In this document: one piece after another, positions 3,391 through 44,017 of the stretch | How positions within the stretch are numbered: position 1 is the stretch's first letter | Layout: each line of letters opens with the position of its first letter | From: Myceligenerans pegani | GTDB taxonomy: Bacteria > Actinomycetota > Actinomycetes > Actinomycetales > Cellulomonadaceae | Reading direction: 5' to 3' | Length of the DNA: 56,513 bases | Assembly: GCF_014892515.1 (NCBI RefSeq) | Contig: NZ_JADBGR010000087.1 | Coordinates: 74,430-130,942, forward strand | The notes under the pieces: model-generated | What the model was told of the DNA's origin: nothing | The model's input: only the letters and a program-made list of their open reading frames with translations | Database searches by the model: none | Program-made: the position numbers and the translations under genes

Positions 3391-4153
3391 GGGATCACCC
3401 GACCGAGTCGCGGAGATCGCGCTTCAGAGGGCCTCCGACGCCTGGAGGTGAGATCGACGGCGCAGGTCCGAACGGGCAGGCCGAAGTAGGGCCGAGGCAG
3501 GCCGCCGCTGTGACGGGACCGGACCTGTGTGGTGACTCCGAGGTGGGCACGCGCCCATCATCGTGGGCGAAGGTGAACGCCAGGCGTCGGGACGCGGGGC
3601 GCCGCGCCGTCAGGTGAGCCCGGCGAGAAGGAGGTCGAGTCCTGGCGCCGGCGTGAGCATGCGCGAGGAGGCCGGCGCCGCCCTGGTCGAACCCCCAAGA
3701 GGCGTACGGGCGTTCGACGTCAACGATTCACCCCTGGGTTCACCCTCGCTCCCGTGGCGACTCGGGTGAATGGGGTTCACTATCGAGTTGTGGGGGCACA
3801 CCTGCGATGGCTGGCAGATCTGCTCGTCGAACGCGGGCAGGACGAGGCGCCCGGGCAACTGGACGCATGGGACAGGGGAGAGAGGTGTCCGCAGCGCGCG
3901 GCGCGCGCGACGGCGAGGAGTCCTGACATCGGGAAGCCTCGCCCGACGGGGGCGGGCGAGGCTCCGGCGTCCGCGTCCCGGAGCGGGGACGCGGCGCCAG
4001 GCGGAGAAGAAGGCTCGACGCCGGATCCGCGCCACGGCGGGCGCGGCGGCCCGCCCGTGCCGGAGGGGGTGGGGTCACGGGCGAAGCCGCGCAACATACA
4101 CAGCTGCGGCTGCGTCCCGGACCGTGACGTGAGGCTGGAGTGGTGACACCCGC
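3391..4153. other. Gene-poor interval of about 760 bp
   Basis: No convincing gene is seen here. Open frames exist on both strands, but they show Arg/Pro/Ala-rich shadow composition and no ribosome sites. The stretch holds TTCACCC/GGGTGAA inverted motifs around 3725-3770 and two strong tandem hairpins (3935-3994, annotated separately). Confidence 0.6.
3935..3994. terminator. Two tandem strong hairpins, probable terminator of the lacI-type gene
   Basis: The first hairpin has an 11-bp perfect stem (AGCCTCGCCCG and its complement, 3935-3963). Seven bases later a second one has a 9-bp perfect stem (CCGCGTCCC / GGGACGCGG, 3971-3994). Read on the minus strand the outer hairpin is followed by TTCCCG, a short pyrimidine tail. 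They lie about 160-220 bp past the stop of the LacI gene at 4154-5215, so they probably end that transcript. Confidence 0.5.
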
Positions 4154-5215
4154 CTATGGGAGGTCGGCCTGGCGGCCGGGGCGGGCCGTCGTCGTCGAAC
4201 GGCGGATCACGAGTTCCGTGGGCAGGACGACGGCCTCGGGCGCCTGCCCTGCCAGCCGCGCGACGAGCGTGGTGACCGCGGCGCGGCCCTTCGCCGCGAC
4301 GTCCTGCCGGACGGTCGTGAGCGGCGGGTTCAGCGCGGCGGCGAGTTCGGTGTCGTCGAACCCGACCACGGAGACGTCGTCGGGCACCCTCAGGCCTCGG
4401 GCGGCCGCGGTGGTCAGCACGCCGTGCGCGAAGACGTCGGAGAAGCACAGGACGGCGGTCACGCCCTGGTCCAGCAGGTCGGCGGCGACCTCGGCCGCGA
4501 CGGACCGGGGCGCCAGCGGTGCCAGCCGGGTCACGACCTCGGCGTCCGCGGCATCCAGGACCTCGCGCCAGCCGGCCATCCGTTCGGACTCCGGGTACTC
4601 GACCGACATCGTGGAGAGGTCGTCGGCGGCGCCGGGTTTCTCGGCGTCCTGCAGGGCGAGGATCCCGACGCGCCGGTGGCCGAGGTCGACCAGGTGCTGT
4701 GCGGCAGCACGGGCACCGCCGCGATCGTCGATGTTGACCGGCGGGATCCCGGGGCGCGGGTTCTCGTCGATGGTGACCATCGGGATCCCGCGTTGCTGCA
4801 GCTCCGCGAGGCCGGAGGTCTCGGCGTTGCACGAGTACACGATGGCGGCGTCGATGGCGACGTCCCGCGCGGGAAAGAACTTCTCGTCGAGCTGGGGCGT
4901 CAGCAGGGTGACCGCCATGCCGTGGGCGGACAACTCGTCGGCGACGGCCGACAGCAGCTCGAGGTCCGACGACCCGTCCGTCGCGAACGCCTCGCCGACC
5001 CGGCCGTTGATCAGCATGCCCACCGATCCGGTGCGCCCCCGGGCCAGCGCCCGCGCGGCCGGGTCCGGGCCGACGTAGCCGAGGTCGGCCGCCGTGTCCA
5101 GGATCTTCCGGCGCAGCTCGGACGAGAGCTGGTCCGGGCGCGAGAAGGCATTGGACACGGTCATGCGGCTCACGCCGACCTTGTCCGCGATCGACTGCAG
5201 GGTCACCTTGGCCAT
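4154..5215 (-). CDS. LacI-family transcriptional regulator
   Basis: 353-residue LacI/GalR-type regulator. The N-terminus carries the HTH (VTLQSIADKVGVSRMTVSN), then a hinge around residues 45-60 and a sugar-binding-like effector domain ending with VVGFDDTELAAALNPPLTTV. An open frame extends far upstream, but the ATG at 5215 starts exactly at the HTH and is the family start. A second LacI regulator of the window; similarity to the one at 1447-2478 is only family-wide. No transporter or glycosidase lies immediately beside it, so its target is unclear. The divergent LysR/MBL/ABC region about 430 bp away is one candidate. An 11-nt direct repeat lies just upstream. Confidence 0.88.
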   Translation of the reverse strand: MAKVTLQSIADKVGVSRMTVSNAFSRPDQLSSELRRKILDTAADLGYVGPDPAARALARGRTGSVGMLINGRVGEAFATDGSSDLELLSAVADELSAHGMAVTLLTPQLDEKFFPARDVAIDAAIVYSCNAETSGLAELQQRGIPMVTIDENPRPGIPPVNIDDRGGARAAAQHLVDLGHRRVGILALQDAEKPGAADDLSTMSVEYPESERMAGWREVLDAADAEVVTRLAPLAPRSVAAEVAADLLDQGVTAVLCFSDVFAHGVLTTAAARGLRVPDDVSVVGFDDTELAAALNPPLTTVRQDVAAKGRAAVTTLVARLAGQAPEAVVLPTELVIRRSTTTARPGRQADLP

Positions 5216-40340: not shown

Positions 40341-40527
40341 GCGCGCACAATGCACCTTGCGGCCATGAATTCGACCGCTGTCCGCCGTCGTGAGCAATGA
40401 GTGATGGCACCTTTCTCCCACTTCCCGGGGTGCTCCGGGAATTGCCAGCATCTCTGTGTCCGGTCCGAAACCCGAACCGGTGGAGAAACTATCGGGCGCA
40501 CGGCGACCCGGTGGAGGGAGAATATTG

Positions 40528-42138
40528 ATGAGAAGAGCGTCTGCGCTTCTCGCGGTGATCTCGTTGGTGGCCTCGATCCTGGGGATCGCGGTCGGTGTGG
40601 CGGCGCCCGCGTCCGCCGCGGCACGTGACGGGGTCTGCGACGGCGGTGAGTTCTGCTATTACTACAACAGCAACAACGCGGGGTCCGTCTCGGACTTCAC
40701 CGCGTCCGTCAGCGACTACGGCACCACGCAGCCCTCGTGCTACGACTTCAAGGGGTCGGGCAACGGCCAGGGCGACTGCATCAAGAACAACGCGGCCTCG
40801 GTGTGGAACCGGTCCGGTGAGACGGTTCGCGTCTACTTCAACACCGGCTACGGCGGCATCTATCAGAACATCGGCCCCGGGTACAAGGGCCAGCTCATGG
40901 CCGAGTTGTACAACAACAACGCCTCGCACCAGTTCGTCGGGACCGCCGGCACCGACACCGGCGCCCGCAGCGGAACCTGTGAGAGCGGCGAGTTCTGCTA
41001 CTACTACAACAGCGGCAACGCGGGGTCCATCTCGGACTTCACCGAGTCCGCCGGCAACTACGGTGACGCGCAGCCGACGTGCTACGACTTCAAGGGCGCC
41101 GGCGCCGGTCAGGGTCAGTGCATCAAGAACAACGCGGCCTCGGTGTGGAACCGGTCCAGCAAGACGGTCCGCGTCTACTACAACAGCTACTACGGAGGCT
41201 CCTACCAGGACATCGCGCCGGGCTACAAGGGCCAGCTGAACAGCACCGTCTACAACAACAACGCCTCGCACCAGTTCATCGGGGCGCCCAGCGCCGGCAG
41301 CGGGTCGCGCAGCGGCACCTGTGAGAGCGGCGAGCTCTGCTACTACTACAACAGCGGCAACGCCGGGTCGATCTCCGACTTCACCGACTCCGTCGGCGAC
41401 TACGGCACCACGCAGCCGTCCTGCTACGACTTCAAGGGGTCGGGCAACGGCCAGGGCGAGTGCATCAAGAACAACGCCGCGTCCGTGTGGAACCGGTCCG
41501 ACCAGACGGTCTGCGTCTACTACAACAGCTACTACGGTGGTTCTTCGCAGGAGCTGGCGCCGGGCTTCAAGGGCCAGCTGAACGGCACCCTGTACAACAA
41601 CAACGCCTCCCACAAGTTCATCTCGGGCACTGAGTGCCCGGTGTCGAGCGGTGGCGGGGGCGGCGACACCGGTGGAGGCGGCACCGGCGGTGGCGACACC
41701 AGCGGGACGTACTCCGAGAAGGTCGAGCGGGTCATCGCGGCCGCGCTGTCGCAGACCGGCCAGGGCCTGAGCTATTCCTGGGACGGCGGCGACAGGTACG
41801 GCCCGGGCTACGGCGTCTGCTGCAGCCCAAGTGGCTACGATGACCGCAACCGGTGGGGCTTCGACTGCTCCGAGTTCATGAACTACGCGTTCTGGCAGGG
41901 TGCGGGCATCTACCTCGGTACGTACACCGGCGCCCAGGTCAACAAGGGCACGGTTGTCTCGATGAGCAACCTGCGGCGTGGCGACCTGATCTTCTGGGGC
42001 GGCTACTCGAGCACCTACCACGTCGCCCTGTATCTGGGCAACGGCCAGATGGTCGAGGCGGCACCGCCGCGCGGCACGAACAGCGTGCACGTGACGAACG
42101 TGTACGGCGGTGACTTCGGAATCCGGGTGAACATGTGA
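40528..42138 (+). CDS. Secreted protein with three I36-type domains and NlpC/P60 peptidase
   Basis: 536 residues: signal peptide (about 1-30), three repeats with the peptidase-inhibitor I36 (beta/gamma-crystallin-like) look, each with four or five Cys and the motifs GEFCYYYNS, YDFKGSGNGQG, KNNAASVWNRS and YNNNASH. A Gly/Ser/Thr-rich linker (about 372-395) leads to an NlpC/P60 domain with catalytic Cys447 (WGFDCSEF) and His498 (TYHVALY). NlpC/P60 enzymes cleave peptidoglycan stem peptides; the I36 parts may bind or inhibit proteases. The ATG at 40528 has a GGAGGGAG site 8 nt upstream. A strong terminator follows at once. Its upstream element is shared with the small peptide gene at 42351. Confidence 0.88.
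   Translation: MRRASALLAVISLVASILGIAVGVAAPASAAARDGVCDGGEFCYYYNSNNAGSVSDFTASVSDYGTTQPSCYDFKGSGNGQGDCIKNNAASVWNRSGETVRVYFNTGYGGIYQNIGPGYKGQLMAELYNNNASHQFVGTAGTDTGARSGTCESGEFCYYYNSGNAGSISDFTESAGNYGDAQPTCYDFKGAGAGQGQCIKNNAASVWNRSSKTVRVYYNSYYGGSYQDIAPGYKGQLNSTVYNNNASHQFIGAPSAGSGSRSGTCESGELCYYYNSGNAGSISDFTDSVGDYGTTQPSCYDFKGSGNGQGECIKNNAASVWNRSDQTVCVYYNSYYGGSSQELAPGFKGQLNGTLYNNNASHKFISGTECPVSSGGGGGDTGGGGTGGGDTSGTYSEKVERVIAAALSQTGQGLSYSWDGGDRYGPGYGVCCSPSGYDDRNRWGFDCSEFMNYAFWQGAGIYLGTYTGAQVNKGTVVSMSNLRRGDLIFWGGYSSTYHVALYLGNGQMVEAAPPRGTNSVHVTNVYGGDFGIRVNM
40627..41631 (+). repeat. Three tandem 342-bp coding repeats
   Basis: The I36-type domain is encoded three times with an exact period of 342 bp: the first cysteine codons of the units fall at 40636, 40978 and 41320. 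Units are highly similar at both DNA and protein level, a sign of recent amplification or gene conversion. Confidence 0.85.
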
Positions 42139-42160: not shown

Positions 42161-42210
42161 GGCAGGGTGCTGCCACCGAATTCGGTGGCAGCACCCTGCC
42201 ATTCCCTTTT
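42161..42210 (+). terminator. Strong rho-independent terminator
   Basis: A perfect 20-bp inverted repeat (42161-42180 and 42181-42200, centred on GAATTC) is followed by ATTCCCTTTT. It lies 22 bp after the I36/NlpC stop. The T-rich tail is rare in this GC-rich window, so this is the clearest intrinsic terminator here. It also insulates the peptide gene downstream. Confidence 0.85.
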
Positions 42211-42229
42211 ATCCGGGCAGGAATGGACA

Positions 42230-42246
42230 CGGCACTTTCGTGACAG
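42230..42246 (+). promoter_or_regulatory. Operator-like element upstream of peptide precursor gene
   Basis: CGGCAC-TTTC-GTGACAG lies about 105 bp before the GTG start of the peptide precursor. It matches the element at 40324-40340 in 12 of 16 core positions with identical spacing. The shared consensus is GGCAC-N4-GTGACAG. The regulator encoded at 42802-43794 is the natural candidate to bind it. Confidence 0.45.
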
Positions 42247-42350
42247 CCCGATTCTCTTGTTGTGCCGCCGGTGCCAGGAAATGATGGGGACAACAGCAAG
42301 GAATTCGCACGCCGAACCACGCCGAGAACCACCCCGAACGGAGAGTCATC

Positions 42351-42515
42351 GTGCAGAGGAACACCGTCCACCGCGCCGCCGCCGTCGTTCTCACCGCCGT
42401 CCTGCTCGCCGCCGCCGGCCAGGGAACCGCCGCCGCGGCCGATCCGCAGTGGGAGGCGGCCGTCGCCGCGGACCCGCAGTGGGAGGCGGCCGCCCTGGAC
42501 GCCACCCCGCGCTGA
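42351..42515 (+). CDS. Small secreted peptide precursor with internal repeat (candidate pheromone)
   Basis: A 54-residue protein that ordinary gene callers may miss. GTG start, with a GGAGAG site 7 nt upstream. A basic n-region and hydrophobic core (about 9-22) form a signal peptide. After the A-rich end comes AADPQWEAA twice (about 29-37 and 39-47) with a short spacer, then a tail LDATPR. Each DPQWEAA unit follows an A-x-A-like signal peptidase site. A tiny secreted protein with a duplicated short peptide resembles pheromone precursors. It is 6 bp upstream of the 95-residue gene and convergent with a TrmB/LuxR-like regulator. It could also be a small cell-wall peptide. Confidence 0.7.
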   Translation: MQRNTVHRAAAVVLTAVLLAAAGQGTAAAADPQWEAAVAADPQWEAAALDATPR

Positions 42516-42521
42516 CGAGCG

Positions 42522-42809
42522 ATGCGCATCGTCATCGCTACGGTCGAGACACCCGAGGCAGCGGCCTGGACCACGCCGGCGAGCATCATCGCGGCGGTCC
42601 GGGCCGCCGCCGTTCCGGAGGACGAACTGGCACACGTCTACGCCGACCTGCTGCCGGCCGGGTTCGGCGTGGTGGTCTATCTCCTGGTGCCGCGGGCGCG
42701 CGCGGCGGCGACCGGCAGCCGGCTGATCCTCGCCGCGGCGGACTCGCTGGAGCTGGCCGACTGGACGCTCGGCGAGGTCAAGGTCTGGGACCCGGCACCA
42801 TTCAGCTGA
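42522..42809 (+). CDS. Hypothetical 95-residue protein coupled to the peptide precursor
   Basis: Short soluble protein, no signal peptide. It starts 6 bp after the precursor stop, so the two are almost certainly one transcript. It has an Ala-rich helix-strand composition (MRIVIATVETPEAAAW, GFGVVVYLLVPRARAA) and ends WDPAPFS. No family is recognised. It overlaps the 3' end of the convergent regulator gene by 8 bp. A processing, sensing or immunity role for the peptide is possible but not shown. Confidence 0.6.
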   Translation: MRIVIATVETPEAAAWTTPASIIAAVRAAAVPEDELAHVYADLLPAGFGVVVYLLVPRARAAATGSRLILAAADSLELADWTLGEVKVWDPAPFS

Positions 42810-43794
42810 GGTCGGCCGGGTCCAGCCAGCCGCGGTCCAGCGCCCGCGCCCCGGCCTGGAAGCGGCTGCTCGCGTCCAGGCGTTCCATGAGGCCACTGCT
42901 CAGCCGGCGCACCGTGCGCAGCGACACGCCGAGCCGGCGGCCGGCCGCGTCGTCCGTCGCCCCCTGGGCCCAGAGCCGGAGGAGCTCGAGCTCCTGCACG
43001 GACAGGCCGTCGTCGTCGCGGCGCCGGTCCGCGCCGATCGGGGTGGCCGCGCGCCAGGCCTGCGTGAACAGCGCCACGAGTGCGGCGACGACGCCGGGTG
43101 ACGTCATCACGACGGCGCCGGAGCCGGACTCGGTGTCGGTCAGGGGGACCATCGCGTGGTCCTGGTCGATGATCTGCAGCCGGACGGGGACCGTGGCGGC
43201 CAGCCGCACCTCGGCCCCGTTGTTGCGCAGCCACGTCGCGTGCTGCCAGGTCGCCTGGTCGTTGCGGATGCTCTCCAGGTAGACGGTGCGCATCCGCACG
43301 CCACGCTCCAGCAGCGCCTGGCTCAGCGCGCGGCTCGACCGCAGCGCGCGCGACGACGTGGCCCGGGTCGGCACGAACGTGCACAACTCCTGCGTGCACT
43401 GCTCGGTCAGCGTCGCGAGGCGGTCCCTCGCCTCCTCCGCGGTCTCGAGGATCTCGACGTCGGGCCCCTTGCGGACGTTCCGCAGCTCGGAGACGAGGCG
43501 TGCGAGGGCCACCCGACCCTCCTCGATCTCCTGGTTGCGCCGTGCGACCTCCGCCTGCTCCCGCGCCAGCAGGGCGGCCAGCCCGACCTCGGGGCTGACC
43601 GGACGGTACCCGTCGTCACCTGCCCACGACTCCTCGACGAGCATCAGGCGGGACAGCTCGTCCAGCGCGTCGCGGACCTCCGTCTCGGTGATCCCGAGCG
43701 CCTCGGCGATCCGGCAGGGGCCGGCGTCGCGCTCCCTCAACATCTGCAGGTAGACCGACTCGGCCGCGCCGGACATGCCAAGGCCTTGCAACAT
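42802..43794 (-). CDS. TrmB/LuxR-like transcriptional regulator
   Basis: 330 residues. The N-terminal winged helix (about 8-60) includes RIAEALGITETEVRDALDEL. A coiled segment (about 75-115) is followed by a middle domain with the PLDc/TrmB-like look (about 130-245, RMRTVYLESIRND, RLQIIDQDHAMVPL). A C-terminal LuxR helix-turn-helix (about 262-325, LSVQELELLRLWAQGATDDA, LGVSLRTVRRL) ends the protein. An in-frame start at 43896 would add 34 poorly conserved residues. The ATG at 43794 has GGGGAG 6 nt upstream and is preferred. It is convergent with the small peptide operon and probably regulates it. Confidence 0.85.
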   Translation of the reverse strand: MLQGLGMSGAAESVYLQMLRERDAGPCRIAEALGITETEVRDALDELSRLMLVEESWAGDDGYRPVSPEVGLAALLAREQAEVARRNQEIEEGRVALARLVSELRNVRKGPDVEILETAEEARDRLATLTEQCTQELCTFVPTRATSSRALRSSRALSQALLERGVRMRTVYLESIRNDQATWQHATWLRNNGAEVRLAATVPVRLQIIDQDHAMVPLTDTESGSGAVVMTSPGVVAALVALFTQAWRAATPIGADRRRDDDGLSVQELELLRLWAQGATDDAAGRRLGVSLRTVRRLSSGLMERLDASSRFQAGARALDRGWLDPADLS

Positions 43795-44017
43795 TCTGAC
43801 TCCCCGATCGAACGGACGGAGCCCCGGGCGGCCGTCCCCGGTGTCGGATGATCGCACAGGGACTCGGGCTCGACCAGAACTTTGCCCTGATTTCACCCTC
43901 GTCGTTTCCTGTGCTTCTGACCTGCGCGTTCAGGCAACCTCCCGGCGGGATGCTGCGTCTAAGGTCGTGGCAGCCCGGTAGCGGGTAGCGACGTACATCT
44001 GAGGAGGACCTGCCCCT

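Follow-up and report, generated by a model that had tools for sequence, protein, structure and literature searches.

The window analysed here, a 56,513-nucleotide stretch of a Myceligenerans pegani contig, contains a cassette of three genes encoding a short peptide precursor, a partner protein and a regulator, with a secreted hydrolase gene as upstream neighbour (Table 1). The original prediction described a GTG-started, 54-residue secreted peptide carrying AADPQWEAA twice, a 95-residue partner beginning 6 bp behind it and a regulator convergent with the partner over 8 bp. Coordinates and reading frames were all found to be right, the overlap being that of the regulator stop codon with the end of the partner gene. 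A signal-peptidase-like A-x-A before each copy had also been proposed; it is not conserved among close relatives and had to be given up.

Table 1. Features of the cassette and its surroundings, in window coordinates.
Feature	Position	Strand	Remarks
Secreted hydrolase gene, upstream neighbour of the precursor gene	40528..42138	+	I36 repeats and NlpC/P60; probable start ATG 40528
Perfect 40-bp palindrome followed by T-rich DNA, terminator-like	42161..42200		between hydrolase and peptide genes
Upstream region of the peptide gene, conserved blocks	42201..42350	+	eight-locus alignment; probable promoter/regulatory sites, function inferred
Peptide precursor	42351..42515	+	54 aa, GTG start, Shine-Dalgarno-like GGAGAG, N-terminal signal-like segment
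DPQWE pentapeptide, copy 1	42441..42455	+	
DPQWE pentapeptide, copy 2	42471..42485	+	
Partner protein	42522..42809	+	95 aa, ATG; starts 6 bp past the peptide stop
Regulator	42802..43794	-	330 aa from ATG; TrmB-like wHTH, PLD-fold sensor without HxKx4D, LuxR-type HTH
Upstream region of the regulator gene, conserved blocks	43795..43990	-	alignment; function inferred

The neighbouring hydrolase matches the Pfam families Inhibitor_I36 (5.7e-34) and NLPC_P60 (5.2e-19), and its gene is kept near the cassette in five relatives at 83–88% identity. By eye, five relatives also have a hairpin-like sequence at the position of the palindrome. In the eight-locus upstream alignment, L015 is partial and L019 aligns poorly. 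A further conserved block, GGCAC(C/T)TTTCTCCCACTTCCC, precedes the NlpC/P60 gene in the window (40406–40425) and its relatives, six sequences in all, and may be a promoter or an operator used by the window group.

Searching 150 genomes of the same family with the regulator (E ≤ 1e-20) identified an orthologue at 86–90% identity in seven genomes beyond that of the window and at 59% in an eighth. A precursor with DPQW(E/D) copies and a partner gene adjoin the regulator at seven of these eight other loci (six close ones and L019); at L018, the eighth, the regulator match is partial (residues 1–287) and a paired DPQW(E/D) word lies on another contig. A peptide frame not conserved beside the regulator, the outcome named beforehand as a refutation, was thus not what the relatives displayed. 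The DPQW[E/D] word was present at the DNA level in all nine searched genomes with an orthologous regulator, the window's included, and absent from G003, a genome without one; single matches elsewhere in G076 and G127 are probably due to chance. Among the seven close precursors, again with the window's, dN was lower than dS in 20 of 21 pairs. In most close relatives nothing separates the first copy from the second (SDPQWESDPQWE), so that the unit is a pentapeptide and not AADPQWEAA, which is not conserved and was rejected as the mature unit. A strict search for the DPQWE repeat in the DNA of 394 genomes of the class matched only the genome of the window. The Trp motifs of other lineages use other letters, and later searches were therefore made by regulator and partner.

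Streptomyces-type and other genomes of the class encode regulators of ∼38–46% identity, often accompanied by divergent short secreted ORFs with Trp-motif ends. Signal peptides were judged throughout by hydropathy and a basic residue, without a predictor, and the precursor filter, which requires either two motifs or a Trp among the final four residues, is biased to C-terminal Trp. When genome contigs were scanned with the regulator alignment, the best 80 of 163 relatives were kept, nearly all named Streptomyces, Kitasatospora or related genera. A partner homologue was found at 76 of these 80 named loci (there was no partner match at L085, L105, L119 and L138), and a Trp-motif precursor at 67 of the 76. 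The partner HMM family occurs at 98 of 118 strong-regulator loci versus 0 of 30 loci with weaker regulators. The 20 strong-regulator loci without a partner match are mostly more distant, and L052, L054, L058 and L064 among them still have Trp peptides. At the 98 partner loci, which hold 95 distinct regulators (L042/L070, L049/L106 and L045/L107 are duplicate pairs), 75 precursors end in Trp plus 0–3 residues and 11 more have an internal motif, namely seven of the window group and L047, L055, L092 and L094. The filter returned no precursor at the remaining 12, three of which (L043, L046 and L117) yielded candidates on a relaxed look. Outside these loci the partner is rare, being found in 19 of 394 genomes of the class and 4 of 138 genera.

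The association of Trp tails with the regulator was compared with a background. Within 1300 bp upstream of the regulator at the 80 loci, 54 of 61 secreted small ORFs, from 53 loci, end in a Trp tail (Trp plus 0–3 residues); on the divergent strand the count is 54 of 57. The same filter applied to 20 stretches of arbitrary Streptomyces-type DNA (400 kb) gave a Trp tail in 2 of 32. The far flanks (354 kb) contain 27 secreted small ORFs, 10 of them Trp-tailed; eight of the ten carry the motif on reading, most beside a partner match. The proposed check for conserved tails beside regulator homologues was thereby run, and short secreted ORFs with D/T-x-x-W tails, often repeated, do adjoin such homologues in several genera.

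The regulator also matches 75 plasmid records. Five plasmid loci were opened; L170, L171 and L174 have a Trp precursor, and none was seen at L172 and L173. Where the plasmid loci are annotated, precursor and partner are both called 'hypothetical protein'; three precursors carry this name in RefSeq. A partner-like ORF of L171 (3514–3855, minus strand) is missing from the PLSDB gene table, in which an antisense ORF (3559–3891, plus strand) is annotated instead. As a separate observation, L021 (a divergent ORF from 2625) and L034 (from 1399) have short secreted ORFs that end in Cys-x-x-Cys and not in Trp. Their tails, QCVACWPTAD and QCIHCKPQPK, lie beside weaker TrmB/LuxR homologues (2 of 24 loci) and possibly represent a second peptide class.

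The conserved unit of the precursors is a pentapeptide, xxxWx, usually at the C-terminus. One residue follows the last Trp before the end in 63 of 83 precursors, a figure helped by the filter, which favours C-terminal Trp. (The duplicate L106 was excluded from motif counts; L045 and L107 were both retained among the 83 and in the set of 82 below.) Trp occurs at least twice in 37 of the 83, and the entire pentapeptide is the same in 55 of 65 copy pairs. Anchored on Trp, copies within a precursor agree at 88% of positions −3, 94% at −2, 88% at −1 and 85% at +1; outside the pentapeptide agreement drops to 43% at −4, 17% at −5 and 47% at +2. A precursor of multiple copies of one short peptide would look like this. 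The window has DPQWE; other examples are DAGWQ, TTAWE (four copies, L074), NTIWD, DMGWQ and DVTWG. Across lineages the Trp is fixed and the other letters vary, with Asp commonest at the first place. Two genomes appear by eye to hold cassettes of differing motif, DSMGWQ and DGFGWG in G441 and DVTWG and DSGWG in G409.

The regulator had been predicted to combine an N-terminal wHTH, a PLDc/TrmB-like sensor and a C-terminal LuxR HTH, an architecture supported by modelling and, in part, by family searches. PF01978 matches the N-terminus below its cutoff (23.7 bits vs 25.6), and GerE and HTH_23 match the C-terminus above theirs. An AlphaFold2 model built with 64 sequences (pLDDT 82.9, pTM 0.65) consists of the wHTH, a long helix, a PLD-like domain and the LuxR HTH. 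In Foldseek it matched TrmBL2, the nuclease Nuc and the TrmB sugar domain. The TrmBL2 match has an E value of 4.7e-14 and an rmsd of 16 over 256 columns, so the likeness holds domain by domain only. HxKx4D is found in none of the 64 regulators and PxRx4D in all 64; the latter is inferred to occupy positions equivalent to HKD. The middle domain thus meets, in sequence and in the predicted model, what is expected of a PLD-like effector domain without the catalytic HKD. No TPR family and no autoinducer-binding (acyl-homoserine-lactone) domain was found in the Pfam scan of the regulator at E ≤ 1. In RefSeq these proteins bear names such as 'LuxR C-terminal-related transcriptional regulator' or 'helix-turn-helix transcriptional regulator'.

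Sugar sensing is the known role of TrmB relatives. The co-variation of peptide motif and sensor points to a different ligand in the present regulators. Over 82 cassettes, the distance between motifs is correlated with that between sensor domains (r 0.54), also after control for both HTH domains and the partner (partial r 0.26, p 0.001); none of the others retains such a correlation. The partial r over 34 dereplicated loci, none of them from the window group, is 0.25 (p 0.002). The signal peptide served as a control. On the 34 loci it follows the wHTH (0.29, p 0.006) and not the sensor (0.04, p 0.36); on the full set of 82 it correlates with the sensor too (0.16, p 0.008), which makes the dereplicated result the fairer one. 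Because the loci share ancestry, these p values err on the optimistic side. As far as alignments can tell, divergence of the motif tracks the sensor domain more than the DNA-binding domains or the partner. This points to a peptide rather than a sugar as ligand, an inference made without binding data.

The partner and the precursor fall into no Pfam or NCBIfam family above cutoff among the proteins scanned. The partner was modelled as a small α/β protein (pLDDT 82.4), ferredoxin-like by reading; its PDB matches are only weak, none at E ≤ 0.001, and no signal peptide was seen by eye. The 3′ ends of Streptomyces-type partner genes are often overlapped by the operator of the peptide gene, leaving variable tails such as GRIGTGPFPST.

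That operator is a 16-bp palindrome, TGGMCNNWWNNGKCCA, repeated at a spacing of 16 bp to give a 32-bp tandem. The tandem lies upstream of the precursor at 54 of 61 divergent Streptomyces-type loci and between partner and regulator at 46 of 61 (at least a single site at 57 of 61). It occurred 0 times in 400 kb of random DNA and twice in 174 kb of flank beyond the regulator. The k-mers of both promoter sets were known before the consensus was written, so enrichment there is partly circular; that of unlinked sites is not. The presence of one operator at both peptide and regulator genes meets, at the level of DNA sites, the expectation for autoregulation in Streptomyces-type loci. In the window the Streptomyces half-site has 12 matches at ≤2 mismatches, no more than in shuffles. 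The window group presumably uses a different operator, none having been established there.

Fourteen genomes were scanned for the operator at 3 mismatches, which gave 53 matches vs 17 for the reversed pattern. Five regulator genomes carry it at their cassettes and elsewhere: in G480 before an NlpC/P60 gene, in G292 before two Rpf-type transglycosylase genes and one CHAP gene, in G282 before an NlpC/P60 gene adjoining its cassette, in G365 before the gene of a NarL-type regulator (identical with the L107 site) and in G441 before an orphan precursor with three TTVWE copies (L220 2591–2815), on a contig where no regulator was found at E ≤ 1e-60. Three sites in these genomes, G480:C45, G292:C13 and G365:C4, are without explanation. 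Five control genomes had no operator; G272 had one weak match, G302 a repeat array and one weak match, the DVTWG-type genome G409 one weak match and the regulator genome G417 none. By eye, L107, L110, L111 and L098 (∼4070–4240) have the tandem operator before a NarL-type response regulator gene that lies past the cassette regulator.

In 150 Streptomyces-type genomes, the operator at ≤2 mismatches gave 85 strand-counted matches in 32 genomes, vs 8 in 7 genomes for the reversed pattern. Twenty-two genomes match on both strands, and these 36 two-strand sites were analysed; one-strand sites, the sole kind in 10 genomes, were excluded. Operator and partner occur together in 14 genomes, the operator only in 8, the partner only in 16 and neither in 112 (Fisher p 1e-6, phylogeny ignored). 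Thus 16 of 30 partner genomes have no two-strand match at ≤2 mismatches, and some operator genomes without a partner match still carry a regulator and a DxxW peptide (L264, L269). A cassette gene or Trp peptide no more than 450 bp away, or a hydrolase signature no more than 1.3 kb away, accompanies 30 of the 36 sites; at random positions a hydrolase signature was met 18 times in 4000 and a Trp-tail ORF 64 times in 4000. Seven sites are associated with hydrolases and have no regulator or Trp-peptide start nearby. Six fit no category by the automatic rule, three of them lying just past the regulator 3′ end (G672, G645:115493 and G576:2591726). Several of the sites that precede hydrolases are on contigs other than that of the cassette. 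The labels of the 36 sites are sequence signatures; in a Pfam search of ten target proteins, seven had a hydrolase domain (three Transglycosylas, PF06737, which we take to be the Rpf-type domain, two CHAP and two NLPC_P60). The other three had only Tachylectin (L257, L128) or only ALF repeats (L259); in L259 the operators at 2723 and 2959 lie near the gene for a large ALF-repeat protein (2512, minus strand).

Wall hydrolases are also frequent beside the cassette. The 81 nearest ORFs beyond the peptide gene include FG-GAP_3 (14), Tachylectin (11), CHAP (10), Rpf-type Transglycosylas (8), NLPC_P60 (8), SLT (6) and BTAD (4); these categories overlap, five of the ORFs are the NlpC/P60 gene of the window group, and ORFs were chosen by a G+C rule that errs at times. 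For the 93 ORFs beyond the regulator, the 25 commonest families listed include none of these hydrolases, and two of the ORFs have Tachylectin. Cassettes of the DVTWG type (L134, L136, L140, L146 and relatives) were seen by eye to adjoin SARP/BTAD regulator genes. One of them, on a plasmid (L171 1089–3050), lies beside a SARP gene and next to ATP-grasp genes; the 9 kb shown contain no annotated hydrolase. No TGGMC site was found at ≤1 mismatch in L134, L136 or L140, and the DVTWG branch may therefore have another operator. Such cassettes may gate secondary metabolism.

We consider it likely that the cassette is an autoregulated pentapeptide-signalling circuit which in Streptomyces controls muralytic enzymes. 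The precursor would be exported by its N-terminal signal segment, as hydropathy suggests, and extracellular proteolysis would release one or more identical pentapeptides xxxWx (DPQWE in the window), cleavage being inferred. The peptide would then re-enter the cell, probably via an oligopeptide permease (import is likewise inferred, and no importer or protease was seen in the cassette), and would bind the TrmB/LuxR-type regulator at its catalytically dead PLD-like domain. In Streptomyces-type loci the regulator is proposed to act on the tandem operators that precede the peptide gene and the partner/regulator pair; the sites are seen in the sequence, and the sign of regulation is inferred. It may also act on secreted peptidoglycan hydrolases, namely Rpf-type transglycosylases, CHAP and NlpC/P60 enzymes, whose sites are seen and whose regulation is presumed. 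The partner would be a cytoplasmic modulator. The window group shares precursor, partner, regulator and adjacent hydrolase with the Streptomyces-type sets. The earlier reading of the three genes as a pheromone cassette gains support from the pentapeptide boundary, the motif-sensor co-variation and the shared Streptomyces-type operator; the pheromone role itself is inferred.

The abundance of wall hydrolases allows another reading, in which the Trp peptides act extracellularly on the wall or on the hydrolases (as inhibitor, cofactor, wall-binding or immunity factor), the regulator senses some other ligand such as a wall sugar or muropeptide, and the operator merely co-regulates. CHAP, Transglycosylas, NlpC/P60 and SLT proteins do adjoin the cassette in the numbers given above, hydrolases share its operator, and the sensor matches the TrmB sugar-binding domain as well as PLD folds. 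Such a role is harder to square with a repeated unit that is only a short pentapeptide with sharp borders, and with a motif that co-varies with the sensor domain when the other domains are controlled. The orphan precursor carries the operator, and the plasmid cassette by the SARP gene has no annotated hydrolase in the stretch shown; both also speak against it. We regard extracellular action as unlikely, though not to be dismissed.

Short precursors with conserved tails would also suit RiPP or antimicrobial peptides, for which the regulator would be a pathway switch, and L145 has a radical-SAM-like neighbour by eye. However, the 25 most frequent neighbour Pfam families listed include no modifying enzyme, the precursors bear Sec-like signals, and most end one residue after the last Trp (with the filter bias noted), so this explanation is considered improbable. 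High-G+C DNA gives rise to many spurious ORFs, and the short frames could in principle be such frames or decayed genes. Their conservation, the excess of dS over dN, the identity of the copies, the Trp tail in 54 of 61 ORFs vs 2 of 32 in the control and the RefSeq annotation of three precursors leave this explanation with hardly any credibility. The pentapeptide-signalling circuit remains the preferred reading.

More broadly, and with less assurance, we lean towards an undescribed class of signalling systems, comprising multi-copy Trp-pentapeptide pheromones, receptors with a dead PLD fold (TrmB-like) and a LuxR HTH, and a dedicated partner. Such systems would be widespread, both chromosomal and plasmid-borne, among Streptomyces and its relatives, a single genome at times having several different motifs. 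The class would set population-level expression of wall hydrolases, Rpf-type enzymes included, and in a sub-branch SARP-driven biosynthesis. If true, this would mean a new receptor fold for peptide signals and a tie between cell-cell communication and wall hydrolases, including Rpf-type enzymes. Streptomyces and relatives are the source of most clinical antibiotics, and cheap synthetic pentapeptides could then serve as elicitors of silent SARP-linked clusters. With predicted peptides, a candidate receptor, an operator and target genes in hand, every step is open to immediate testing.

Descriptions of linear peptide pheromones that act on intracellular receptors come mainly from Bacillota, and to our knowledge such signalling is hardly known in actinobacteria. 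No description of the cassette was found in the open-access PMC literature, preprints not included, and it could be in print elsewhere; the portions available of PMC13220807, PMC13118837 and PMC4748050 contain none. The combination of receptor fold, peptide, partner and operator fits no described peptide-signalling family that was found, and the cassette is on that account considered new as a system.

The logic resembles that of the RRNPPA systems (Rap-Phr and others), which, in the part of the source available, pair a short exported propeptide, in some cases holding several pheromones, with a cytoplasmic receptor that binds the peptide by TPR repeats, and are prevalent in Bacillota (PMC11343458). 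The cassette likewise has an adjacent short propeptide with its motif near the C-terminus, exported as judged by hydropathy only and a pheromone by inference, and its proposed signal is again a short linear peptide. It is not a member of RRNPPA because it lacks a TPR receptor; its candidate receptor combines a PLD-like sensor with a LuxR HTH, its motif is centred on Trp, and it adds a third conserved protein and an operator-defined gene set, in actinomycetes. With archaeal TrmB/TrmBL (PDB 5bpd, 2f5t) the regulator shares a PLD-like effector domain and possibly, its N-terminal Pfam match lying below cutoff, a TrmB-type wHTH, but differs in its extra C-terminal LuxR HTH, in the linked secreted peptide and in a ligand that is inferred to be probably a peptide rather than a sugar. 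Like other actinobacterial LuxR-type regulators it has a C-terminal GerE HTH, yet no acyl-homoserine-lactone-binding domain was seen in its Pfam scan. Gamma-butyrolactone signalling, to the extent covered by the available text of PMC13220807, is also cell-to-cell control in Streptomyces; its signals are small molecules, whereas the signal proposed here is a ribosomal pentapeptide with a regulator of its own.
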